Source of the DNA: Xanthomonas bonasiae
Lineage (GTDB): Bacteria > Pseudomonadota > Gammaproteobacteria > Xanthomonadales > Xanthomonadaceae
Length of the DNA: 64,000 nt
Direction: 5' to 3'
Assembly: GCF_017163705.1 (NCBI RefSeq)
Contig: NZ_JAFIWB010000015.1
Span: forward strand, 1-64,000
Below the pieces are notes generated by a model. That model was not told where the DNA came from. It searched no databases and worked only from the letters and a program-made list of their open reading frames with translations. The position numbers and the translations under genes were made by a program. This document shows, piece by piece, positions 48,765 to 62,840 of the stretch; position 1 is the stretch's first letter, and each line of letters starts with the position of its first letter.

Positions 48765-49031
48765 GAGCAGCGCGGCAACTGCTCTCGCGACTGCATATGG
48801 CATGCATGTCGCGACCGTGCCCCGTCTGGCGGATGGGGCACGCGGATTGCCGCGTTCATCCGTGCGCATGCGACTTCGGTTGCATTTCGCGTGGACGTTC
48901 CGTCGCGTAGGGCTGAAGGCGCTTATGCATCTGCTGGCCTGGAGTGGAATCCGCGGGCATGTAGCCTGCATGCTTCATCTTAGAGAGTCGCTGCCGCTTT
49001 GGGGCATGTGCGAGAGCGGGGAAAAGCTGCG

Positions 49032-49778
49032 ATGAAAAACGATGCACCGCAGCCCTTCGACGCGGAAAGCAGGCCAAGGCCTGTATTGGACGGTGTGCGC
49101 ATCGCGGTGGTCGAGGACGACGCCGAGCTGTGCGCGATCATCGTCGACGAGCTGGGCCACGAGGGCGCGCAGGTGCTCGGCTTCGGCAGCGCCGAAACGC
49201 TGTACCGGCATCTGCTCGGCCATGTTTGCGATCTGGTGGTGCTGGATGTCGGGCTGCCGGGCGAGGACGGCTATTCGGTGGCGCGCTATCTGCGGCAGAT
49301 CGCGCCGCAGGCGGGCATCGTGATGCTCACCGGCCGCGGCGCCAATCCCGACATGACCCGCGGCTTGCTGCAAGGCGCGGACATTTACCTGGTCAAGCCG
49401 CTGGATGTGGAACTGCTGATCGCCGCATTGGCCAATCTGCGTCGGCGCTTGCAGCTTGCCGCATCGCCGGAGGCGTTGCCGGCGCAGGAATGGCGCTTGA
49501 GCGACGACGGCTGGACGCTGTCCTCGCCAGCGCAGCGCACGCTGGCGCTGACCGAGGCCGAACGCGGCCTGCTGAAGGCGCTGTTCGCGCAACGCGGCGC
49601 GCCGGTGGACCGCGACACGCTGATCGCGGCGGTCACCGACGCGCCGTGGGACTTCGATCCGCACCGCCTGGAGGTGCTGGTGCATCGCCTGCGCGCACGG
49701 GTGACCGCGGCCACCGCCGCGACGCTGCCGCTGCGTGCGGTGCGCGGGCAGGGATATCTGCTGGGCGACAACGCCTAG
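49032..49778 (+). CDS. Orphan OmpR/PhoB-type response regulator
   Basis: 248 residues from the ATG at 49032. The receiver domain (about 22-140) has the acidic pair Asp29/Asp30, phospho-acceptor Asp72 (V-V-L-D-V-G-L-P-G), Thr100 and Lys122 (L-V-K-P-L-D), so it should be phosphorylatable. The C-terminal winged-helix domain (about 150-245) ends G-Q-G-Y-L-L-G, typical for DNA binding by OmpR-family regulators. No histidine kinase gene is adjacent. The large surface-protein operon begins 365 bp downstream on the same strand, so it is a natural candidate for its regulator, but this is position only. Confidence 0.9.
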   Translation: MKNDAPQPFDAESRPRPVLDGVRIAVVEDDAELCAIIVDELGHEGAQVLGFGSAETLYRHLLGHVCDLVVLDVGLPGEDGYSVARYLRQIAPQAGIVMLTGRGANPDMTRGLLQGADIYLVKPLDVELLIAALANLRRRLQLAASPEALPAQEWRLSDDGWTLSSPAQRTLALTEAERGLLKALFAQRGAPVDRDTLIAAVTDAPWDFDPHRLEVLVHRLRARVTAATAATLPLRAVRGQGYLLGDNA

Positions 49779-50143: not shown

Positions 50144-53100
50144 ATGGATCATTTGATGCGCGGCAGCCGTGCGGCTGCACTGCGGGCGTGGGCGCGTGCC
50201 GCCTGCGAACACCACCGGACCACGGCGTCGTCGGGGCGACGCTTGCGGTTGCTGATGGCCGTCCTGCTGTCGGCCGCGCCTGCGCTGGCCGCGGCCGCGG
50301 ACCTGCAGATCACCAACCTGTCCGACACCGGCTACGATCCCACGCCGGCCGGGGGCAGCGTGGTCTACAGCGTCACCGTCGAGAACAGTGCCGCCGATAC
50401 GGTCAACAACGCGGTGGTGATCTTCGACCTGCCCGCCGGTGCCCAGGCGGGCTCGCCGTTGCCGTCCTCCTGCAGCGTGGCCGCCGGCAACGCGCAGCGC
50501 ATCGAATGCCGGGTCGGCACGCTGGTCGGGACCTTCTCTTCCAACGGCGCGCCGGTGACCTTCCAGTTGCCGGTGAGCACGGTCGGCCTGGCCCCGGGCA
50601 CGATCGAGATCCGCGGCGCGATCGGCGTGGAAACCGGCCTGCCCGCGGCGAGCACGCCGATCGCCTCGCTGGCCGATGCCGATCCGTTCTTCGCCGGCGA
50701 CAGCAACGCGGCCAACAATCGCCGCCTGGAAGCGACCACGCTGGAATCGGCGGGCGACCTGAGCGTGGAGAAGACCGCCACGCCGAACCCGGTCGTCGCC
50801 GGCGCCGAGGTCACCTATACCGTCACCGTGCGCAACGCCGGACCCAGCGCTTCGGCCGGCTTCACCGTGGTCGACACGCTGCCGGCCGCGGTGCAGTACG
50901 TGGCCAACAGCTTCAGCGGCAGCGGCTGGACCTTCAACAGCGGCAGCATGACCGCCACCCACGCCGGCGCGCTGGCCAATGGCGGCAGCAGCAGCTTCAC
51001 CTTCCGCGCCCGCGTCACCGCGGCCAGCGGCAACATCGTCAACACCGCACGCGTGCAGGCCGGCTCCACGCCGGATCCGTTGCCCGACAACAACACCGGC
51101 AGCGTGACCACCACGGTCACCGCCGGCGCCGACCTGGCGCTGAGCAAGAGCGTCAACCCCTCGCCGGCGATCTCCGGCCAGCCGGTCACCTTCAACATCC
51201 AGGTGCGCAACCAGGGGCCGAGCGCCGCGGTCAATCCGCGCTTCGTGGACAACCTGCCCACCGGCTTCCTGACCACCGGCGGCACCGTGCCGGCCGGCTG
51301 GACCTGCACCAACAGCAACGGCGACGCCACCCGCACCTGCGCGTTGAACGGCAGCCTGGCGGTCGGCGCCGTAGCCGATTTCACCATCGAGAGCACGGTG
51401 CCGGCGTCCGGCACCAACAGCAGCGGCGACGTCACCAACAGCGCCACCGCCAGCTCCGACACGCCGGACGCGAACAGCACCGACAACACCGGCAGCACCA
51501 CCTTCACCGTGCTCGCCGACGGTGCCGACCTGTCGCTGCAGAAGACCAAGACCCCGGCGCTGGTGCCGGTGTGGAGCGGCATCGGCAGCGATCTGGACAG
51601 TCGCATGACCAGCAGCATCGTCGTGCGCAACATGGGACCGCGCCCGGCGACCGGCCAGGTGCAGACGGTGGATACGCTGGCGACCGGCGAAGAGCTGTTG
51701 CAGCCGGACGGCAGCGTGGCGCAGCCGGGCGTGGCGTTCGCCAGCGGCGCGTGGACCTGCACCGTGGACCAGGCCTACAGCGGCTCCAGCGTGCAGCACG
51801 TGACCTGCGATCTCGGTGCCGGTTCGCTGCCGTTGGCAGTGGGCGCGCAGGCGCCGACGCTGCAGTTGCTGACGCGCGCGCGCAGTTCCTCGGCCAACCT
51901 GCTCAACAACGCCTGTACCGGCGGCTCCGGCGGCTCGATCGAGCCGCTGACCGGCAACGGCATCGACCGCGACCCGGAAACCGGCAACGACTGCTCGGGC
52001 GCGGGCACCCGCACCACCGACGAGCGCGCCGACCTGTCCATCGTCAAGCAGACCAATGGCGCCGGCGCCGCCGACAACGTGCTGGCGGCCAACCAGGACA
52101 CGCTCAGCTACACCCTGACCGTGACCAACAACGGCCCGGACAGCACCACCGGCGTGGTGGTCAACGACACCGTGCCCGGCTTCGTCAACGGCCGCACCCA
52201 GATCAGCGTGACCACCACCCCGGCCGGCTGGAACTGCGCCGTCAACGGCGCCTCGGTGGTCTGCCGCTCCGGCACCACCGCGCTGGCCAACGGCGCCACC
52301 GCGCAGATCGTCATCCAGGTCCAGCGCGCGCTGTTCGACAGCTTCAACCAGCCCGCCGGCACCTGCGGCGGCACCGCCATCAGCGGCGCGTTCTGCAACA
52401 CCGCCGGGGTCGGCATCGATGCGGCCGTGGCCGGTTCGGTGGGCGAGCTCAACGGCAACAACAACCAGGCCTCGGACTGGATCCGCATCGCGCGCGTGGC
52501 CAACGTCGCCACCACCGCCAAGACCATTTCCTCGGGCACGCCCGGCCGCGCCGGCGTCAACACCACCTACGTGATGTCCTACATCAACCGCGGCCCGTCG
52601 ACGGTGCCCGGGGTGATCTTCCGCGACGTGTTCACCCTGCCGGCCAACGATTCGGGCTTCGTGCTGGTGTCCGCGCAGCGCACCGGTGCCGGCACCCAGG
52701 CCTGTACCGCCAGCGCTGGCGCCGGGGTGACGGTCACCGTCGACGCCGGCGGCACCTCCTACGCCAATCCGACCGGCGCGCCGGCGCAGGTCACCGTGCA
52801 GTGCCCGGCGCTGCCCTCGCTCACCAACGAGCAGACCGAAACCCTGCAGGTGGTGATCCGGCCCAACGTCAACAGCGGCAACACCGGCCGCCAGTTCGAC
52901 AACACCGCCGACTTCGTGGTGGACCTCGATGGCGACGGCAACGGCGATGCCACCGCGGGCACCGACGGCGACGGCAACACCTACGACTTCAATACCGACA
53001 CCAGCGACGACAGCAAGAGCGCGCAGCTGCCGTTCGAGGCCGGCCAGGTCGACCTGATCACCAACAAGGTGGACACCGGCTTCACCGGCGGCGTGGATCC

Positions 53101-56100
53101 GCTCGGCTTCGACGCGACCAATGCCGCGGCGAACCTGATCACCTACCGCATCACCATCCGCAACAACGGCCCGTCGGTCGCCACCGACGTGCGCCTGGCC
53201 GACACCTTCACTCCGCCGTCCGGCCGCACCGTCACCTTCATCGGCGCCTCGGCCACGCCCACCGGCACCTTCGATCCGGCCGCCTGTTCGGTGACGTCCG
53301 GCAGCAACCCGACCGTGGGCGCGGTGCAGGTGCTGAACTGCCTGATGCCCGGCATCGGCTTCAGCAACAACGTCGCCGGCGTGGTCGCGTCCGGCCAGAC
53401 CAGCACGCTGTACCTGCGCTACCGCTACGACACCCCGCCCGGCGCGGCCGGCGACACGGTCAGCAACCTGGCCCAGGCCACGTCCGCCGAGACCGACAGC
53501 AACACCGCCAACAACGGCGCCAGCCAGGAAACCACGATCCGCGCCTCCGCCGACGTGGGCGTGAGCAAGCACGTGATCACCACCGCGCCCGATGCCGATC
53601 CGGATGCGGCGCTGCCGGCCAACGCCACCTCGGTGGGCCTGCGCCAGCCGTTCTTTTACGTCATCGACGGCATCAACAACGGTCCCGGCGCGAGCCTGTC
53701 GCGCGATCGCAGTGGCAGCAGTCCGCTCAACGGCACCGGCACCGTGGTCAGCGACACGCTGCCCGCCGGGCTGGTGGTCGTCGGCCAGGTGAGCTGGCAG
53801 AAGAAGGGCCCGATCCCGGGCGGCGGCGGTGGCGAAGTGCCCAACGGCACCGGCAACTGCACCCAGGCCTCGGCCACGCTGACCTGCAACCTCGGCGACG
53901 TCACCGTCGGCGGCAAGCTGCGCATCGTGGTGCCGGTGCGCTGGGATGCCTATCCGGGCGCGTCGGCGATCAACAACACCGCGACCATCACCACCGAGCA
54001 GGTCGATCGCGTCCCGCCGAACAACACGTCCACCGTGCCGATCCTGGTCACCCGGGCGTCGCTGGCCGGTACCGTGTTCGAGGACCGCGACCGCGCGGGC
54101 GGCAACGGCGGCGTTCACCAGAACGGCGAACCCGGCATCGCCGGCGTCACCATCGTGCTGAGCGGCACCGACGCCTACGGCAATGCGGTCAACCGCAGCA
54201 CCACCACCGCGGCCGACGGCAGCTACAGCTTCGACAACCTGTCGGCGGCCGGCGCGGGCGGCTACACGCTGACCCAGACCCAGCCCACCGGCTATCGCAA
54301 CGGGCCGGTGGATCCGCCGGTCGCCGGCGCCAGCGCGCCGTCGCTGGGCGGCACCTATGCCGCCGGCAGTCCCAACTCCAGCTACACCACGATTCCGGTC
54401 GGCGCGTCCGACGCGGCCGTGCGCTACGACTTCCCGGAAGTGCGTCGTCCCAGCCTGTCCGGCCGGGTCTACGTGGACCTGAACTTCAACAACGTGCGCG
54501 ACGGCGGCGATCCGGCGATCGCCGGCGCCACCGTGGAACTGCTCGATGCCGTCACCGGCGCGGTGCTGGCCACCACCAGCACCGACGGCAACGGCGCCTA
54601 CCGCTTCGACGACCTGGATCCGACGCTCACCTACAGCGTGCGCGAGCCGCTGCCGAGCGGGCAGTACAGCAACCGTCCCAGCGCGATCAATCCCGGCCAG
54701 ATCGGCGGCGCGGCGTGCGCGGCGGGCACCTGCGTGGCCGGCACCGCGGTGGCCGCGCCCGGCGGCCCGGATGCGGCCAGCACCGACCGCATCTCGCAGA
54801 TCCAGCTGGGCGCGGGCCTGGACGGCACCGAGTTCAACTTCGGCGAGAACCCCAGCGGCAGCGCGATCCAGGGACGGGTGTGGCGCGACGACGACAACGA
54901 CGGCGTGATCGACCCGGCCGAGACCGGCCTCGCCGACGTGGAGCTGGTGCTGACCGGCACCGACCAGAACGGCCAGGCGGTCAACCTGACCACCAAGACC
55001 GATGCGACCGGCAACTACAGCTTCATCGGCCTGCTGCCGGGCACCTACACGGTGACCGAGCCGACCCAGCCGACCGGCACCCTCAACGGCAAGACCGTGC
55101 CCGGCGACAAAGGCGGCACCGCCACCGGCGTGACCACCACGCCGTCGGCGATCGCCACCATCGTGCTCGGCGCCAACCAGCAGGGCCAGCACTACGACTT
55201 CGGCGAAGTGGCGGCGGCGTCGCTGTCCGGCCGCGTGTACTACGACAACGACGACAACGGCGTGGTCGGCAGCGACGAATCGGGCATCGCCAACGTGCGC
55301 GTGGTGCTGACCGGCACCGACGATCTCGGCGCCGCGGTGCAACTGAGCGTGCAGACCGATGCGCAGGGCAACTACCGCTTCGAGAACCTGCGCCCGGGCA
55401 CCTACACGGTGACCGAACCGGATCAACCGGCCGACACCCGCAACGGCGTCACCAGCGCCGGTACCGTTGGCGGCACCACGCATGGCGTGGCGACCCCGCG
55501 CGAGACCGTGCCGTCGGCGATTTCCGCGGTGGTGCTGACTCCGGGCGCGCAGTCGATCGACAACAACTTCGGCGAGATCGCCAACACCCCGGACCTGGTC
55601 GTCAGCAAGCTCGCCGACCCGGTCAAGTTCACCGTCAACAACACCGCCCGCTACACGATCAGCGTGCGCAACATCGGCCCGCGTCCGACCGCCGGCGTGT
55701 ACCAGGTGCAGGACCGCCTGCCGCCGGGCGTGACCCTGGCGGCGCTGCCCACCGGCAACGGCTGGACCTGCGCCGGCGCGGTCGGTGCCGACCGTTTCAG
55801 CTGCGACGCCAGTACGCTGATCGCGCCCGGACAGACCGCCAGCGATCGCATCCACGTGCAGGTCGCGGTCGGCGCCGCGGCGGCGACCGGCAACCCGGTC
55901 AACAACGCGGTGCTGGTGCAGGGCGGCGGCGAAGACGCCACGCACAGCCCGACCCCGGCCGAACGCGGCGCGTTCGAGGGCGACGTGACCCAGCTGCCGG
56001 TGTGCGATCCGGCGATCACCCAGAACGCCTGCCGCGTGCCGACCCAGGTGCAGTTGGCGGCCTCGGTGTCGGGCACGGTGTGGTTCGACGTCGGCAACGA

Positions 56101-57889
56101 CGACACCCTGCTCGACGGCGGCGATCGCCGCCTGCAGAACTGGATCGTCGAACTGGTCGATCCGACCAGCGGCCAGGTGGTCAAGACCACGCTCAGCGCC
56201 GCCGACGGCAGCTACCGCTTCGGCGACGTGATCCCCGGGCAGAAGTGGCACATCCGCTTCCGCGATCCGAGCTCCGGGGTCATCTGGGCGTTCCCGGTCA
56301 GCGGCGAGACCGCTTCCGGCGCCGCCGCCCCGTGCGCGGCCGACGCGGCGATCAGCAACGGCAGCAACAGCTCGTGCCGGGTCAGCGACGGCGGCATCAG
56401 CCAGCTGGAAGTGGTGCTCAAGGCCGGCGAGAACCTGCCGCAGCAGAGCCTGCCGGTGGATCCGTCGGGCGTGGTCTACGACGCGGTCACCCGCGACCCG
56501 GTGCCCGGTGCGATCGTCACCCTGGCCCCGATCGGCGTCTGCGCCGGCTACGACCCGGCCACCAGCCTGCTCAACAGCGCGGCCGGCGGCTACCGCATCG
56601 ACGGCAACGCGGTGTCGATGACCGTCGGCAACGACGGCTACTACCAGTTCCTGTTCGGCCCGGCGGCGCCGGCGCGCTGCGAGTTCGAGCTGACAGTGAC
56701 CCCGCCGGGCGGCTACGTCTTCGTCTCCACGCTGATCCCGGCCGAAGGCAGTTCGCTGTCGCCGCCCGGCGCGGTGGGCAGCAACTACCAGGTGCAGCCC
56801 AACGCGCTGGCGCCGACCGGTCCGGTCGGCACTGCGACCCAGTACTACCTGCGGCTGTTCGCCGGGTCGGCCACCGCCGGCATCGTGCACAACCACATTC
56901 CGCTGGACACCGCGGTGGCCACCGGCCTGGCCATCACCAAGACCGGCGACCGCCAGACCGCCGAAGTGGGCGATACCGTGCAATACACCATCACCATCCG
57001 CCAGACCGCCGGCAGCCCGCTGCAGACGGTGAACGTGGTCGATCGCCTGCCGCGCGGCTTCACCTACATCGACGGCACCGCGCGCGCCAACGGCGTGGCC
57101 GTGGCCGAGCCGCTGGGCAAGCCCGGCCCGACCCTGGGCTTCGCCACCGGTCCGATCCAGGTCGGCCAGCAGATCGCGCTGACCTACCGGGTGCGCATCG
57201 GCGTCGGCGCGCAGCAGGGCGACGGCATCAACCGCGCGCAGGCGCACGGCTGCTCGATCGCCGGCGGCTGCATCGATCCGGTCTCGCTGCAACCACGTTC
57301 CGGTTCGTTGCCGTCCAACCAGGCGCAGTACCGCGTGCGCGTCAGCGGCGGCGTGTTCACCGAGGAGGGCTGCGTGCTGGGCAAGGTGTTCGTGGATTGC
57401 AACGTCAACCACGTGCAGGACCGCGAAGAGCTCGGCATTCCCGGCGTGCGCCTGTACTTCGAGGACGGCACCTGGGTGATCAGCGACTCGGAAGGCAAGT
57501 ACAGCTACTGCGGCCTGCCGCCGCAGAGCCACACGCTGAAGGTCGATGCCAGCACGCTGCCGGTCGGCTCGCGCCTGACCACCAGCAGCAACCGCAACCT
57601 CGGCGATGCCGACAGCCTGTTCATCGATCTCAAGAACGGCGAACTGCATCGCGCCGACTTCGTCGAGGGCAGCTGTTCCAACCCGGTGATCGAGCAGGTC
57701 AAGGCGCGCCGCACGCAAGGCGAGGTGCGCGCGCCGGAAACCGAAACCGGCCATGCGCCGCTGCGCTTCAGCAGCAAGCCGCTGCGCGCGCCGCAGCAGG
57801 GCACCGACAGCCCGGCGCAAGCGCCGATCGTCAAGCCGCGCGGCACCCCACCGCCCGATGTCACCGTTCCTGCGGAGGTGCAGCCATGA
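50144..57889 (+). CDS. Giant secreted DUF11/SdrD_B-like repeat surface protein
   Basis: 2581 residues from the ATG at 50144 behind GAGAGAGAGG. After a long arginine-rich N-region a signal-peptide core (about 37-54, ending A-L-A-A-A-A) precedes the mature chain. Eight or so DUF11-type Ig-like domains come first, each starting like A-D-L-S-V-E-K-T and holding V-R-N-x-G-P-S and V-D-T-L-P. From about residue 1300 four SdrD_B/Cna-B-like domains follow (L-S-G-R-V-Y-x-D, G-x-Y-x-F-x-x-L, T-V-T-E-P), then further DUF11 and Cna-B-like units. Cna-B-like folds suit long fibres. No LPxTG, membrane anchor or RTX motif is seen, so attachment must depend on a partner. The TGA overlaps the start of the barrel gene (ATGA). 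Confidence 0.88.
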   Translation: MDHLMRGSRAAALRAWARAACEHHRTTASSGRRLRLLMAVLLSAAPALAAAADLQITNLSDTGYDPTPAGGSVVYSVTVENSAADTVNNAVVIFDLPAGAQAGSPLPSSCSVAAGNAQRIECRVGTLVGTFSSNGAPVTFQLPVSTVGLAPGTIEIRGAIGVETGLPAASTPIASLADADPFFAGDSNAANNRRLEATTLESAGDLSVEKTATPNPVVAGAEVTYTVTVRNAGPSASAGFTVVDTLPAAVQYVANSFSGSGWTFNSGSMTATHAGALANGGSSSFTFRARVTAASGNIVNTARVQAGSTPDPLPDNNTGSVTTTVTAGADLALSKSVNPSPAISGQPVTFNIQVRNQGPSAAVNPRFVDNLPTGFLTTGGTVPAGWTCTNSNGDATRTCALNGSLAVGAVADFTIESTVPASGTNSSGDVTNSATASSDTPDANSTDNTGSTTFTVLADGADLSLQKTKTPALVPVWSGIGSDLDSRMTSSIVVRNMGPRPATGQVQTVDTLATGEELLQPDGSVAQPGVAFASGAWTCTVDQAYSGSSVQHVTCDLGAGSLPLAVGAQAPTLQLLTRARSSSANLLNNACTGGSGGSIEPLTGNGIDRDPETGNDCSGAGTRTTDERADLSIVKQTNGAGAADNVLAANQDTLSYTLTVTNNGPDSTTGVVVNDTVPGFVNGRTQISVTTTPAGWNCAVNGASVVCRSGTTALANGATAQIVIQVQRALFDSFNQPAGTCGGTAISGAFCNTAGVGIDAAVAGSVGELNGNNNQASDWIRIARVANVATTAKTISSGTPGRAGVNTTYVMSYINRGPSTVPGVIFRDVFTLPANDSGFVLVSAQRTGAGTQACTASAGAGVTVTVDAGGTSYANPTGAPAQVTVQCPALPSLTNEQTETLQVVIRPNVNSGNTGRQFDNTADFVVDLDGDGNGDATAGTDGDGNTYDFNTDTSDDSKSAQLPFEAGQVDLITNKVDTGFTGGVDPLGFDATNAAANLITYRITIRNNGPSVATDVRLADTFTPPSGRTVTFIGASATPTGTFDPAACSVTSGSNPTVGAVQVLNCLMPGIGFSNNVAGVVASGQTSTLYLRYRYDTPPGAAGDTVSNLAQATSAETDSNTANNGASQETTIRASADVGVSKHVITTAPDADPDAALPANATSVGLRQPFFYVIDGINNGPGASLSRDRSGSSPLNGTGTVVSDTLPAGLVVVGQVSWQKKGPIPGGGGGEVPNGTGNCTQASATLTCNLGDVTVGGKLRIVVPVRWDAYPGASAINNTATITTEQVDRVPPNNTSTVPILVTRASLAGTVFEDRDRAGGNGGVHQNGEPGIAGVTIVLSGTDAYGNAVNRSTTTAADGSYSFDNLSAAGAGGYTLTQTQPTGYRNGPVDPPVAGASAPSLGGTYAAGSPNSSYTTIPVGASDAAVRYDFPEVRRPSLSGRVYVDLNFNNVRDGGDPAIAGATVELLDAVTGAVLATTSTDGNGAYRFDDLDPTLTYSVREPLPSGQYSNRPSAINPGQIGGAACAAGTCVAGTAVAAPGGPDAASTDRISQIQLGAGLDGTEFNFGENPSGSAIQGRVWRDDDNDGVIDPAETGLADVELVLTGTDQNGQAVNLTTKTDATGNYSFIGLLPGTYTVTEPTQPTGTLNGKTVPGDKGGTATGVTTTPSAIATIVLGANQQGQHYDFGEVAAASLSGRVYYDNDDNGVVGSDESGIANVRVVLTGTDDLGAAVQLSVQTDAQGNYRFENLRPGTYTVTEPDQPADTRNGVTSAGTVGGTTHGVATPRETVPSAISAVVLTPGAQSIDNNFGEIANTPDLVVSKLADPVKFTVNNTARYTISVRNIGPRPTAGVYQVQDRLPPGVTLAALPTGNGWTCAGAVGADRFSCDASTLIAPGQTASDRIHVQVAVGAAAATGNPVNNAVLVQGGGEDATHSPTPAERGAFEGDVTQLPVCDPAITQNACRVPTQVQLAASVSGTVWFDVGNDDTLLDGGDRRLQNWIVELVDPTSGQVVKTTLSAADGSYRFGDVIPGQKWHIRFRDPSSGVIWAFPVSGETASGAAAPCAADAAISNGSNSSCRVSDGGISQLEVVLKAGENLPQQSLPVDPSGVVYDAVTRDPVPGAIVTLAPIGVCAGYDPATSLLNSAAGGYRIDGNAVSMTVGNDGYYQFLFGPAAPARCEFELTVTPPGGYVFVSTLIPAEGSSLSPPGAVGSNYQVQPNALAPTGPVGTATQYYLRLFAGSATAGIVHNHIPLDTAVATGLAITKTGDRQTAEVGDTVQYTITIRQTAGSPLQTVNVVDRLPRGFTYIDGTARANGVAVAEPLGKPGPTLGFATGPIQVGQQIALTYRVRIGVGAQQGDGINRAQAHGCSIAGGCIDPVSLQPRSGSLPSNQAQYRVRVSGGVFTEEGCVLGKVFVDCNVNHVQDREELGIPGVRLYFEDGTWVISDSEGKYSYCGLPPQSHTLKVDASTLPVGSRLTTSSNRNLGDADSLFIDLKNGELHRADFVEGSCSNPVIEQVKARRTQGEVRAPETETGHAPLRFSSKPLRAPQQGTDSPAQAPIVKPRGTPPPDVTVPAEVQP

Positions 57890-60800
57890 GCCGGCCCGTC
57901 ACGACGCGCCGCCTGCCGCGGCTGACCCTGCTCGCCTGCGCCCTGGCCGCGCTGCCGGCGCTGGCCCAGCAGACGGTCGGCAGCAGCCGCTTCACGCCGG
58001 TGCTGGGCGAGGCCGGCACGCTGTACCCGCGCACGCCGAGCAGCGCCGATGCCGCCGCGCAGACGCTGGCGCCGCGCGGCACGCTCGACGCGCACGCCGC
58101 GCAGGGCATGGACCAGGTGCAGGTGGAGGTCGACCGCGATGGCGCGCCGGCCGACGGCCAGACGCCGGTGCACGTGACCGTGCGCCTGCTCGACGACGCC
58201 GGCAAGCCGTTGCAGGGCGAGCACTTCGCCACCGTCGAACACACCGGCGGCCGCATCCTGCTGCCGGGCTCGCGCACCGACGAACTGGGGCCGGGCGCGG
58301 CCGATGCCGACAAGGTCACCCCGGGCGTGCAGCTGCCGGTGCGCGACGGCGTGGCCGAGTTCGACCTGCTCGCGCCGGACCAGCCGCAGGACGTGGTGCT
58401 GCGGGTCAGCGCCGGCGGCCACAGCGCCGAAGGCACGATCGGGTTCGTGCCGGAGATGCGCGAGATGATCGCCACCGGCCTGATTGAGGGTGTGGTCAAC
58501 TTCGGCCGCCGCGACAACAGCGGGCTGATCGCGCCGGTCGATCACGACGACGTGTTCGAACGCGATATCCGCCGCTGGGAAAAGCAATTCAACAACGGCA
58601 AGGCCAACGCTGCCGCGCGCACCGCGTTCTTCGTCAAGGGCCGGATCAAGGGCGAATACTTGCTCACCGCCGCCTACGATTCGGACAAGGACGTGCGCGG
58701 CCGGCTGCTGCGCGACATCCAGCCGGAAGAGTTCTATCCGGTGTACGGCGACTCCTCGCTGCGCGGCTTCGACGCGCGCTCGGCCGAGCGCCTGTACGTG
58801 CGCGTGGACAACCGCCGCAGCTATCTGCTGTACGGCGATTTCCAGACCGGCGACACGCTGGCCACCGCGACCGGCGTCGGCGCGCGCAGCAGCATGCCGC
58901 AGCGCAGCCTCGGCACCTACAACCGCACCGCCACCGGCCTGGGCTGGCACTACGAGAACGCACGCGTGCGCTCCAACGTGTTCGCCATCCAGGACTCGCT
59001 GCGCCAGGTGATCGAAGAATTCGCCAGCCAGGGCAGCGGCCCGTACGCACTGCGCAACAACGCGGTGCTGGAAGGCAGCGAGCGGGTGGAAGTGGTCGTG
59101 CGCGACCGCAACCAGCCCTCGCGGATCGTCTCGGTGCAGCCGCTGGCGCGGTTGGTGGACTACAGCTTCGAGCCGTTCTCGGGGCGCATCCTGCTCAACC
59201 AGTTCCTGGCCTCGTTCGACAGCGACCTCAATCCGGTGTCGCTGCGCATCACCTACGAACTCGACCAGGGCACCGAGCGCTTCTGGGTCTACGGCGCCGA
59301 CGGCCAGCTGCGGCTGACCGATGCACTGGAAGTCGGCGGCGCGGTGGTGGACGACCGCAACCCGTTCGCCGAATTCCGCATGGGCAGCGTCAACGCCGGC
59401 TACCGCTTCGGCCCGAATACCGCGATGGCGGTGGAGTTCGCGCGCACCCAGAGCGAGATCAACACCAACTCGATCAACCAGGTCGCCACCCCGGGGCTGC
59501 AGGACCTCAGCGGCCGCGTCGAAGGCGATGCGTGGCGCGTGGAGTTCGGCCACGACGGCGACAAGCTCGACGCCAACCTGTTCGCCGCGCGTACCGATCC
59601 GGCGTTCAACAACCCGGCCTCGCCGCTGTTCGGCGGGCGCGGCGAGTACAACGCCAAGGTCGACTACCACCTGACCGAGCGCGTGGACCTGTATGCCGAA
59701 GGCCTGCGCAGCGAGGACCGCAACCCGGACGGCGGCAAGCGCGATGCCGGCGGTGCCGGCGTGCGCGTCGGCGCCACCGAAAGGCTCACCCTGGACGTCG
59801 GTGTGCGTTCGATCCGCGAGACCGTCGGCGCGTACTCGCCGTGGTCCTCGGGCCTGGGCTACGGCAACACGGGTGGTCTGACCGGCGGCTTCGCCACCGG
59901 CTCCGGCGGCGGCGCGCTCGGCTACGGCCAGCAGCCGCTGGATCCGTTGACCGGCCTGCCGGTGATCGGCTCCAGCAGCGCCGTCACCGGCACCGCCAGC
60001 GACCTGCCGATCGGCACCCGCCTGGAATCGGATAGCGCGCGCATCGGCGCCGGCTACCGCGTCGGCGCCAAGCTGTCGCTGGGCGCCGAGTACGAGCAGA
60101 GCGTGTCCGGCGAAGACCGCAACCGCATCGCCGCCGGCGTCGATTACCAGGTGCTGGAACGCAGCCGCCTGTACGGCCGCTACGAGAAGCAGACCGGCCT
60201 GACCAGCGCTTACGGCATCACCACCACCGACCGCGAGGCCGATGCGCTGGTGTTCGGTATCGACAGCAGCTACGTGCGCGACACCCAGGCGTTCTCCGAG
60301 TACCGCATGCGCGATGCGATCAGCGGCCGCGACGTGCAGGCCGCCTCCGGCATCCGCAATACCTGGGACGTGCGCGAGGGCGTGCGCCTGAGCAGCTCGG
60401 CCGAACACGTGAAGGTGTACGACGGCAACACCGGCGATGCCACCGGCCTGGCGCTGGCGCTGGACTACGGCGTCAACCCGCTGTGGCGCGGCTCGGTGCG
60501 GGTGGAGTACCGCATCAGCGGCGACGTCGCCCAGACCGCGACCGACGAGGCCTTCGACACCACGCTGGTGCAGTTCATGCTGGCGCGCAAGCTCAGCCGC
60601 GACTGGACCCTGCTCGGCCGCAACTACCTGCTGCAGACCAACTACGCCGCGCGCGGCGACGTGCTGCAGAACCGCTTCCAGCTGGGCGTGGCCTACCGCG
60701 ATACCGACACCAACCGGATCAACGCGCTGGCCCGCTACGAGTACAAGCTGGAGCGCGACGAGAGCGGACTGACCCTGCTCGACGGGCAGGCGGTGGACGG

Positions 60801-61260
60801 CAGCAGCCAGGACATCAGCAGCCGCGCGCACATCGTCTCCACCCATGCCGACTGGCATCCGTCGCGGCCGTGGTGGCTGACCGCGCACGTGGCCGGCAAG
60901 TGGCAGCAGGACCGTTTCGCCTATGCCGACGGCGGCCGCGTGGACAGCCGCTTCCATGCGGTGCTGGTGTCCGGGCGCGTGGTCTACGACATCACCGAGA
61001 ACTGGGACATCGGCGTGCTCGGCTCCACCTTCCGTGGCCAGAGCGGTTCCAACCAATACGCCTACGGCATGGAAGTGGGCCGGCTGCTGCGCCAGAACCT
61101 GTGGCTGTCGGCCGGCTACAACTGGTCCGGCTACACCGCCGACCGCGACCTGTCCGGTTACGAGTACACCCAGCAGGGCGTGTTCCTGCGCCTGCGCTTC
61201 AAATTCGACGAAGACCTGTTCCGCCGGGATCCGGTCCGTTACCGCGACCCGGCGCGCTGA
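57886..61260 (+). CDS. Outer-membrane beta-barrel protein with N-terminal Ig-like region
   Basis: 1124 residues; the ATG overlaps the DUF11 gene stop by 4 bp. A signal peptide ends A-L-A-Q. At about 75-185 an Ig/invasin-like segment is visible (D-G-A-P-A-D-G-Q-T-P-V-H-V-T-V-R-L-L-D). A linker (R-D-I-R-R-W-E-K-Q-F-N-N) follows, then from about 240 a long series of amphipathic strands with alternating aromatic residues (Y-L-L-Y-G-D-F, L-S-L-G-A-E-Y, W-L-S-A-G-Y-N-W-S-G-Y) to the C-terminus (R-L-R-F-K-F-D-E-D-L-F). This fits a large outer-membrane barrel. No TonB box is seen. It could export or anchor the giant DUF11 protein; that is inference from coupling. Confidence 0.8.
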   Translation: MSRPVTTRRLPRLTLLACALAALPALAQQTVGSSRFTPVLGEAGTLYPRTPSSADAAAQTLAPRGTLDAHAAQGMDQVQVEVDRDGAPADGQTPVHVTVRLLDDAGKPLQGEHFATVEHTGGRILLPGSRTDELGPGAADADKVTPGVQLPVRDGVAEFDLLAPDQPQDVVLRVSAGGHSAEGTIGFVPEMREMIATGLIEGVVNFGRRDNSGLIAPVDHDDVFERDIRRWEKQFNNGKANAAARTAFFVKGRIKGEYLLTAAYDSDKDVRGRLLRDIQPEEFYPVYGDSSLRGFDARSAERLYVRVDNRRSYLLYGDFQTGDTLATATGVGARSSMPQRSLGTYNRTATGLGWHYENARVRSNVFAIQDSLRQVIEEFASQGSGPYALRNNAVLEGSERVEVVVRDRNQPSRIVSVQPLARLVDYSFEPFSGRILLNQFLASFDSDLNPVSLRITYELDQGTERFWVYGADGQLRLTDALEVGGAVVDDRNPFAEFRMGSVNAGYRFGPNTAMAVEFARTQSEINTNSINQVATPGLQDLSGRVEGDAWRVEFGHDGDKLDANLFAARTDPAFNNPASPLFGGRGEYNAKVDYHLTERVDLYAEGLRSEDRNPDGGKRDAGGAGVRVGATERLTLDVGVRSIRETVGAYSPWSSGLGYGNTGGLTGGFATGSGGGALGYGQQPLDPLTGLPVIGSSSAVTGTASDLPIGTRLESDSARIGAGYRVGAKLSLGAEYEQSVSGEDRNRIAAGVDYQVLERSRLYGRYEKQTGLTSAYGITTTDREADALVFGIDSSYVRDTQAFSEYRMRDAISGRDVQAASGIRNTWDVREGVRLSSSAEHVKVYDGNTGDATGLALALDYGVNPLWRGSVRVEYRISGDVAQTATDEAFDTTLVQFMLARKLSRDWTLLGRNYLLQTNYAARGDVLQNRFQLGVAYRDTDTNRINALARYEYKLERDESGLTLLDGQAVDGSSQDISSRAHIVSTHADWHPSRPWWLTAHVAGKWQQDRFAYADGGRVDSRFHAVLVSGRVVYDITENWDIGVLGSTFRGQSGSNQYAYGMEVGRLLRQNLWLSAGYNWSGYTADRDLSGYEYTQQGVFLRLRFKFDEDLFRRDPVRYRDPAR

Positions 61261-61267
61261 GGAATCC

Positions 61268-62290
61268 ATGATGACCACGACCCAACCCCGCTTCGTCCTG
61301 TCCCGCACCGTCGCCGCCGCCTTGCTGCTCGGCGCCTGTGCCGCCGGCAACGCCCAGACCCAGCTGTTGCCGCAGCAGCAACGCATCAGCGACGCCGCCA
61401 TCGCCGCCGACCTGCACGGCTACCAATCCGTGCAGGACCGCATCCAGGCGCTCAACGACGGCGGCCGCCCGGTGCGCGACTACGCCTTGTCCAAGGCGCA
61501 ATGCTGGCTCGACGTGTCCTTCCACGAATACACCCGCAACGACCGCAGCGCGTTCCCGCAAGGCGCGCTGAGCGAGTCGGAGAAGCTGGTGCAGCTGATG
61601 GAGCAGGGCGCCGCGACGATCCCGACCGAGACCCCGCTGGTCAACGACGCCAAGTACCTGCGCGACGACCTGTGGCAGCGCCTGCGCGCGCTGCACGGCA
61701 GCGCCGGTTTCAGCTGCGCGCAGCAGGCGGCGGCCTGCGGCGAGGTCGAGCTGGTGCATGCAGGCAACGAGTTCAACCAGCAGCAATGGCGCCATTCCAA
61801 GCCGTACATCCAGATCGCCGAGGACCTGGTCAACGACGCCGAGGCGCTGGCACGGCAGTGCGACGGGCCGAAGCAGGCGGACACGCCGGCGGCGGCGCCG
61901 ATTCCGCTGGTGGCCAACGTGCTGTTCGAATTCGACCGCGACGGCTACAAGGACATCCGCACCCACTCGCTGGAAAGCCTGGATCGCGCGCTGGCACGCA
62001 TCGCCGAAGAGAAGCTGAGCTTGCAGAAGGTGGAGCTGGTCGGCCATGCCGACCGCATGGACGGCCGTGGCCACGACTACAACCAGGGCCTGTCCGAGCG
62101 CCGCGCGCGCACCGTGCGCGAGCTGCTGATCGGCCGCGGCGTCGCCGCCGACCGCATCCGCTACGAATACCGTGGCGACAGCCAGCAGGTGCAGCAGTGC
62201 GCCGGCGTGAAGCCGCGCGCGGCGCTGCTGGAATGCCTGCTGCCGAACCGCCGCGTCGAAGTGCGACTGGTGGTCGGTCGCGGCGACTGA
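61268..62290 (+). CDS. OmpA-like peptidoglycan-binding envelope protein
   Basis: 340 residues, starting 7 bp after the barrel gene; two adjacent ATGs (61268, 61271) are possible. The leader can be read as a lipoprotein signal (L-L-L-G-A-C) or a normal signal peptide ending G-N-A-Q. The N-terminal 200 residues are helical with repeated glutamines and two or three cysteines. The C-terminal OmpA-like domain (about 215-335) shows L-F-E-F-D-R-D-G, V-E-L-V-G-H-A-D-R and N-Q-G-L-S-E-R-R-A-R-T-V, the peptidoglycan-binding signature. It should tie the barrel/DUF11 complex to the cell wall. It is the last gene of the operon. Confidence 0.9.
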   Translation: MMTTTQPRFVLSRTVAAALLLGACAAGNAQTQLLPQQQRISDAAIAADLHGYQSVQDRIQALNDGGRPVRDYALSKAQCWLDVSFHEYTRNDRSAFPQGALSESEKLVQLMEQGAATIPTETPLVNDAKYLRDDLWQRLRALHGSAGFSCAQQAAACGEVELVHAGNEFNQQQWRHSKPYIQIAEDLVNDAEALARQCDGPKQADTPAAAPIPLVANVLFEFDRDGYKDIRTHSLESLDRALARIAEEKLSLQKVELVGHADRMDGRGHDYNQGLSERRARTVRELLIGRGVAADRIRYEYRGDSQQVQQCAGVKPRAALLECLLPNRRVEVRLVVGRGD

Positions 62291-62300
62291 CGGCGCTTGG

Positions 62301-62700
62301 AGCCCCTCTCCCCCGGGAGAGGGGTTGGGGTGAGGGTCCGGCGCGAAAGCGCCTCGCGGAGTTTGGGTGCACGAGGCTGCGCCCGTACCCTCATCCGGCC
62401 CTGCGGGCCACCTTCTCCCGCCGGGAGAAGGGAGCAGCCCTAGCCCCTCTCCCATCGGGAGAGGGGTTGGGGTGAGGGTCCGGCGCGAAGCGTCTCGCGG
62501 AGTTTGGGTGCACGAGGCTGCGCCCGTACCCTCATCCGCCCCTTCGGGGCACCTTCTCCCGATGGGAGAAGGGAACGGCTCTAGCCCCTCTCCCATCGGG
62601 AGAGGGGTTGGGGTGAGGGTACGGCGCGAAGCGCCTCGCTGAGTTTGGGCGCGCGAGGCTTCGCCCGTACCCTCATCCGCCCCTGCGGGGCACCTTCCCT
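62301..62700. repeat. Three tandem copies of a 141-bp intergenic repeat
   Basis: Units begin at 62301, 62442 and 62583 with AGCCCCTCTCCC, exactly 141 bp apart; the third is cut short near 62700. Each holds a hairpin CCCTCTCCC/GGGAGAGGG, a second hairpin CTTCTCCC/GGGAGAAGG, and distant complementary blocks GGTGAGGGT and ACCCTCATCC, so each unit can fold on itself. The units match at most positions. Similar CCCTCTCCC repeats are common between genes of Xanthomonadaceae. They lie after the OmpA-like gene and may act as terminator or mRNA 3' structure. Confidence 0.9.
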
Positions 62701-62840
62701 CGAAAACGGGCCATGGTCCCGCCGGCAGAAGGAGGCGCGGCCGGCCGGGCAGCGCTAAAGAATTCCCGCGCAGCGCCGCCATCATGGTGAAGCGAAGTCG
62801 CTTTCGCCGCCCGGATCGGGCTGTCCATGAGGGAACGCGC

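Follow-up and report, generated by a model that had tools for sequence, protein, structure and literature searches.

A conserved and repeatedly fused trio of giant Ig-like repeat protein, predicted very large outer-membrane barrel and OmpA-like protein in Xanthomonas bonasiae and its relatives

The closest described counterparts of the locus considered here are found in type V secretion and, for sheer size, in type 9 secretion. Type Va autotransporters have an N-terminal passenger and a C-terminal barrel in one chain, and in two-partner secretion (type Vb) passenger and barrel have coupled genes; barrels of the Autotransporter or POTRA/ShlB families have 12–16 strands. That of SprA has 36, and the proteins exported through it bear a C-terminal signal. 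SprA is the type 9 translocon, a very large single-chain barrel exporting surface proteins (PMC10994853, in its accessible part), and for the type Vc pair AtaA–TpgA the accessible part of PMC13082670 describes a long surface fibre, an outer-membrane anchor and a periplasmic peptidoglycan-binding partner with an anchor-binding N-domain. The subject of this article is a trio of adjacent genes in 64,000 nucleotides of DNA from Xanthomonas bonasiae (RefSeq assembly GCF_017163705.1, contig NZ_JAFIWB010000015.1, positions 1 to 64,000, forward strand; this whole stretch is ‘the window’). They encode a giant Ig-like repeat protein (P0001), a probable outer-membrane barrel (P0002) and an OmpA-like protein (P0003), and their working logic, as read from sequence, resembles that of AtaA–TpgA and of autotransporters, while the proteins match none of those families. 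The trio and its parts lie in the window as follows.

50144..57889, + strand: giant fibre protein P0001 (ATG 50144, TGA 57889), 2581 amino acids (aa), eight DUF11 and six SdrD_B stretches
56864..57886, + strand: conserved C-terminal region of P0001, residues 2241–2581 (giantC): last DUF11, SdrD_B-like domain and tail
57584..57727, + strand: C-terminal signature of the giant, residues 2481–2528, candidate docking or export signal
57886..61260, + strand: outer-membrane barrel protein P0002, 1124 aa, predicted barrel, without a Pfam or NCBIfam model above cut-off
58117..58287, + strand: Ig-like (Big_1-like) stretch, P0002 residues 78–134, below the Pfam cut-off (E 1.1e-4, 22.7 of 34.9 bits)
58468..61203, + strand: predicted barrel strands, P0002 residues 195–1106, 36–40 long strands, according to the minimum length chosen
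59035..59271, + strand: small conserved domain inserted between barrel strands, P0002 residues ~384–462, from the alignment; possible plug
61268..62290, + strand: OmpA-like protein P0003, 340 aa, N-terminus signal-like by eye
61358..61882, + strand: N-domain of P0003, residues 31–205, candidate barrel-binding part
61949..62200, + strand: OmpA domain of P0003, residues 228–311 (PF00691, 43.8 bits; cut-off 27.2)

The likeness to AtaA–TpgA lies in the combination of a fibre, an outer-membrane anchor and a partner with an OmpA-type peptidoglycan-binding domain, here predicted. The trio differs in that its barrel is one domain of ~900 residues, usually with a gene to itself, that its giant has DUF11/SdrD_B repeats, that P0003 falls below the TpgA cut-off and that YadA_anchor is missing (no match in P0001 or P0002 in Pfam at E<=0.01; the three matches in the genome are all elsewhere than the trio). 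Fused relatives of the trio recall type Va, with passenger N-terminal and barrel C-terminal, and split ones recall the coupled passenger and barrel genes of type Vb, but P0002 lacks the families of both (autotransporter, POTRA and ShlB-type models gave no match in it in Pfam at E<=0.01), and its predicted barrel, at 36–40 strands, is far larger. In the open-access literature searched no description of the trio or of the barrel was found, with which the surmise that the trio is undescribed is consistent.

The main result of these sequence comparisons is that the three modules make up a single unit, which is conserved, tightly coupled and has undergone repeated fusion. In the window the ATG of P0002 overlaps the TGA of P0001 as ATGA (57886) and seven bases separate the P0002 stop from the P0003 start; the initial annotation had this layout and the 2581-residue Ig-like repeat giant right, with open reading frames and Pfam in agreement and both DUF11 and SdrD_B far above cut-off in P0001. 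A purine-rich stretch immediately precedes the P0001 ATG, the N-terminus of the protein is hydrophobic and signal-like when judged by eye, and P0001 carries eight of the ten DUF11 matches listed for its own genome, the remaining two being on contig C12.

Conservation was assessed in a sample of 198 Xanthomonadaceae genomes, with a strong match to barrel or giantC defined as E<1e-50 (a threshold set after the tables had been seen) and with a P0003 query, OmpA-N, that omits the common OmpA domain. Counting all matches, many of them weak, the barrel query found 89 genomes and the last 341 residues of the giant 101; those weaker than the threshold include a distant branch, whose inspected members keep the same layout. 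Strong matches numbered 37 genomes for the barrel, 36 for giantC and 34 for OmpA-N. All 36 giantC genomes are barrel genomes (Fisher p 9e-39, genomes treated as independent), the sole barrel genome without giantC being one, G135, that carries only part of the barrel; so are all 34 OmpA-N genomes (p 4e-35, likewise), and the three with barrel and no OmpA-N (G048, G068, G121) are fused types. At the 38 barrel places giantC is upstream on the same contig in 30, ending 0–691 bases before the barrel match, 3.6–11.4 kb downstream in four, and absent from that contig in four, while OmpA-N begins 89–246 bases past the barrel match at 35 of the 35 places where it was found. Among the same-genus genomes listed, five of nine, X. 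bonasiae itself included, have a strong barrel match.

When one genome per species was scanned, at least 588 stretches proved to encode a relative of the barrel. The 79 named loci discussed here are the best of these and are mostly from Xanthomonadaceae and Burkholderiales. By BLAST giantC is upstream of the barrel in 69, downstream in six, fused in one and not found in three; it thus adjoins or is fused to the barrel in 76 of the 79 by BLAST and in 77 by profile. The two loci that the profile misses start 153 bases (L116) and 2 bases (L139) ahead of the barrel match. An OmpA gene was detected in 69 of the 79, with L119, L121 and L133 ending at a contig edge. Coupling of start and stop was examined at the 69 split loci by reading the barrel frame from a point 40 bases ahead of the giant's stop and noting where its first start codon falls. 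That codon is at +3 or earlier in 67, or in 68 under a slightly different count, the two other frames giving 46 of 138; it is exactly at −4, as in an ATGA overlap, in 37, against 4 of 138, so that the coupling exceeds chance. Both exceptions, L106 and L107, have a broken barrel frame. A set of 144 loci, partly redundant since L031–L050 overlap L071–L149 (L034 is L071 and L047 is L128, for instance), left giantC unmatched within the sequence examined in eight: L051–L055, L116, L139 and L199. Because the trio is adjacent or fused nearly everywhere that it is matched, the proposal that it is a conserved coupled unit stands, and rare adjacency, which would have spoken against it, is not what the co-occurrence check found. 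At two loci from Lautropia, L141 and L143, the giant lies downstream of the barrel and is followed by a second giant-like frame; a search for an OmpA gene there found none.

The strongest evidence for one joint unit is the rearrangement of the modules among relatives. Besides the three separate genes seen in the window (i), giant and barrel may share one frame of 3728–4230 aa (ii: L042, L044, L045 and L047, the last being the same place as L128, from Lysobacter selenitireducens), at whose junction no barrel signal peptide is visible by eye. Fibre, barrel and OmpA domain may form a single chain with OmpA last (iii: L056), or a single chain in the order fibre, OmpA, barrel (iv: L189, L190, L191). 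An OmpA domain may lead the barrel protein with the giant separate (v: L192, L195, L069), or it may stand at the C-end of the giant with the barrel separate (vi: profile matches in L062, L063, L065–L068 and L070, not in L064). In this last arrangement, after the hint from the profile, OmpA exceeded the Pfam cut-off at the giant's C-end in 6/6 distant giants scanned (L063, L065–L068, L070). The same three modules being joined in several different ways, they appear to be parts of one machine. Among 88 non-redundant barrels (reduced from 142 at 82% identity) 22 are fused, 54 have the giant upstream, eight have it downstream (L051, L054 and L055 assigned by hand from coordinates) and four are undetermined; on a FastTree tree of them, in which some forks are open, the split or fused state needs at least four changes. 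One genome, G105, has both a split trio (L040) and a fused giant–barrel copy (L042).

When 398 genomes of the phylum were searched with the profile, 67 gave a match, some solely via the Ig-like part, and 24 plasmid records matched, including ones from Acinetobacter haemolyticus, several alphaproteobacteria and two cyanobacteria, so that related barrels extend to Alphaproteobacteria and cyanobacteria. The A. haemolyticus plasmid copy is a single chain with an OmpA gene after it. In the records inspected from the last two groups, one cyanobacterial and one alphaproteobacterial (L201, L202), the profile detects giantC in the gene upstream, which again shares four bases with the barrel gene. Distant barrels of the family at L202:6939-10646 and in other plasmid matches are labelled TonB-dependent receptor in public records; at L199:5132-14117 a distant barrel without a giantC match has a 1570-aa frame upstream. 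The sole viral relative, a single-chain copy on a contig from a viral collection (L203:309-5306), is read as bacterial flank because the contig's far end resembles prophage genes by eye.

What is retained of the giant, adjoining or fused to the barrel, is giantC. At the 64 loci with all parts its residues 2241–2520 have a median identity of 68.4%, against 59.3% for the barrel, 53.0% for the OmpA protein and 44.3% for the best stretch in the rest of the giant, a stretch that they exceed at 64 of the 64; the length of the giant differs among relatives. Within giantC the signature, GEL..RADF.EG and then QVKARR, is recognisable in the tails of all 16 relatives compared, and in strict form its first part occurs at 66 of the 79 named loci and its second at 62; over all 144 loci the counts are 88 and 82. 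The giant had been described as lacking a visible anchor or secretion tag. This needs refinement: the strongly conserved region 2241–2581, with its signature at 2481–2528, exists, and the signature may serve as a docking or export signal.

P0002 is probably an outer-membrane barrel, an assignment from predicted structure and not from a family match. Two AlphaFold models were made from 64 and 65 sequences (alignments mostly common, so that the models are not independent). Excluding the inserted domain they have 40 strands of at least 7 residues, of which 32 lie beyond residue 440 in either model, or 37 and 36 of at least 9; in the first, beta strands at residues 75–188 make up an N-side Ig-like domain. 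The inserted domain, conceivably a plug, has no convincing relative in the Protein Data Bank (PDB) or Pfam. In the family members scanned no Pfam or NCBIfam model reached cut-off over the barrel region; for P0002 Pfam at E<=0.01 gave Big_1 alone, below cut-off, with nothing from the Slam (type 11), usher or TonB-dependent receptor families, and NCBIfam gave nothing. Foldseek having returned generic large barrels and the PDB-sequence searches having listed no SprA, P0002 is thus a predicted very large barrel for which no solved close relative was found. Inverse autotransporters (type Ve, intimin/invasin) likewise combine a barrel with Ig-like domains, and the N-side domain of P0002 weakly matches invasin, but in P0002 the Ig-like domain precedes the barrel, there is no C-terminal passenger and no inverse-autotransporter barrel matched. 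P0001 for its part shares tandem DUF11 and SdrD_B domains with the surface proteins built of these repeats.

Three other candidates for kinship were set aside. SprA suggested itself by its very large single-chain barrel and by its Foldseek ranks of 1 and 2 for the trio barrel models, but its query TM-score is 0.16 and there is no sequence match (SprA chains are absent from the PDB-sequence matches of the family profile and of the inserted domain at E<=10). It is kept solely as a size comparison because the sequence searches gave kinship no support; a search of the X. bonasiae genome for SprA_N found nothing and was uninformative, its control also matching nowhere. A link to type 11 secretion was also dropped: the paper richest in ‘duf11’ concerns, in its accessible part, mainly DUF1194 (PMC12282271). 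DUF3233, with a mean of 312 residues and 12 strands in the accessible part of PMC3206015, is not comparable in size to the trio barrel.

P0003 is probably the protein that grips the cell wall. Its Asp262 and Arg279 align with the Asp and Arg by which solved OmpA domains bind peptidoglycan, and the OmpA-domain fusions to barrel and to giant strongly support the earlier proposal of wall tethering through this module. Its N-domain, which in the 198 genomes occurs only where there is a barrel and adjoins it, is a candidate for the barrel-binding part. The comparison is with the N-domain of TpgA, through which that protein binds the anchor of AtaA (PMC13082670, accessible part). Against the TpgA model NF047726 P0003 scores 85.4 bits, the cut-off being 350, with the match confined to residues 210–333. 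Directly 3′ of the OmpA gene, at window positions 62314-62702, are three repeat copies spaced by ~141 bp and with inverted-repeat content.

The explanation that we favour on balance is a three-module surface-display machine in which the barrel anchors, and most likely exports, the giant while the OmpA-like protein ties the assembly to the wall. The giant would be exported via Sec and its N-terminal Ig-like chain would cross the outer membrane, with giantC remaining at the periplasmic side bound to its very large partner barrel; this barrel would anchor the giant and, most likely, let it out. The OmpA-like protein would dock to the barrel or to the end of the giant, tying the whole to peptidoglycan, and by this tie a fibre far longer than the periplasm could bear load. 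An OmpA domain at the C-end of a giant implies that this C-end should be periplasmic and therefore, if the fibre is outside, that the N-end points outwards with the C-end held inside. We have fair confidence in surface location and wall anchoring and less in the barrel itself being the translocator, a role for which it is favoured because the single-chain forms are laid out like autotransporters; given the fusions, passage of the giant through its own barrel in a type Va/Vb-like manner is plausible.

Several observations weigh against this account. Adjacency and fusion indicate a common task, not transport, and another transporter may lie among the neighbouring genes. No OmpA gene was found in the flanks examined of seven of the 79 named loci (L126, L135, L136, L140–L143) and many fused forms showed no OmpA domain; the tail signature is not universal, its strict form being absent from 13 of the 79. 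The loci share ancestry, so that their counts are not independent events. The barrel models are of moderate confidence (pLDDT 65.9 and 70.6, pTM 0.64 and 0.66), and the Foldseek matches listed are generic large barrels, SprA and Mtr at the top, with query TM-scores of at most 0.26. A more modest role is one in which barrel and OmpA protein merely hold giantC at the outer membrane and the giant exits by another route. We think this rather unlikely, though it is the most serious competitor: a conserved giantC and the logic of docking fit it, the neighbouring genes could include the transporter, and in AtaA–TpgA the anchor of a fibre can be strengthened by a peptidoglycan-binding partner in the periplasm (PMC13082670, accessible part). 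What it sits less easily with is the single-chain form, where fibre comes first and barrel follows in one polypeptide, as in autotransporters.

There need be no surface fibre at all if the giant is periplasmic, a spacer between barrel and peptidoglycan, and OmpA domains at the giant's C-end or between repeats and barrel, as well as single chains as short as ~1600–1900 aa, would suit such a tether. It is nonetheless improbable: extended giants of ~2600 aa or more should, from usual domain size, span several periplasm widths, and the repeat part diverges faster than giantC while giant length varies, as in surface fibres. Least probable is solute uptake, with the barrel a porin or TonB-type receptor and the other two proteins accessory. 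The ‘TonB-dependent receptor’ annotation of certain distant relatives speaks for it, but neither P0002 nor any distant barrel scanned had a TonB receptor, plug or porin family at cut-off, and the strict link of the barrel to giant fibres would be left unexplained.

A bolder reading is conceivable, which we regard as tentative and are inclined to doubt: Proteobacteria and cyanobacteria would have an outer-membrane export system of their own, as yet without a name, in which a single-chain barrel of 36–40 strands would be wide enough to pass Ig-like domains and would export a giant fibre, with the fibre recognised by giantC and a peptidoglycan-binding module as stopper. Its barrel would be at least the size of SprA, and repeated fusion and fission would have given the system versions with one, two and three proteins. 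Whatever its standing, the trio offers a candidate, directly open to test, for a new route by which giant adhesin-like proteins are exported and anchored to the wall. For the family of very large barrels, with at least 588 stretches, the scans made gave no model above cut-off and the literature searched gave no role, yet the family is tied to giants at nearly every locus examined; many genes labelled just ‘DUF11 domain-containing’, ‘hypothetical’ or ‘TonB-dependent receptor’ acquire a context, and the natural fusions hint which module contacts which.

Control of the trio is a lesser matter. A scan for promoters and terminators gave nothing beyond chance. The initial annotation had pointed to a response regulator just upstream:

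48999..49778, + strand: OmpR-type response regulator, start codon uncertain; possible local regulator, not core part

The gene is indeed a real one of OmpR type, with an upstream match in 12 of 20 close relatives, and may be a local regulator of the trio, though not one of the system's general components. At the same-genus locus L031 a histidine kinase precedes the regulator and has a 90% identical match in L032; its kinase part gave no match in the window. In the window itself, between 47406 and 49778, what precedes the regulator is a DUF4440 gene on the opposite strand.

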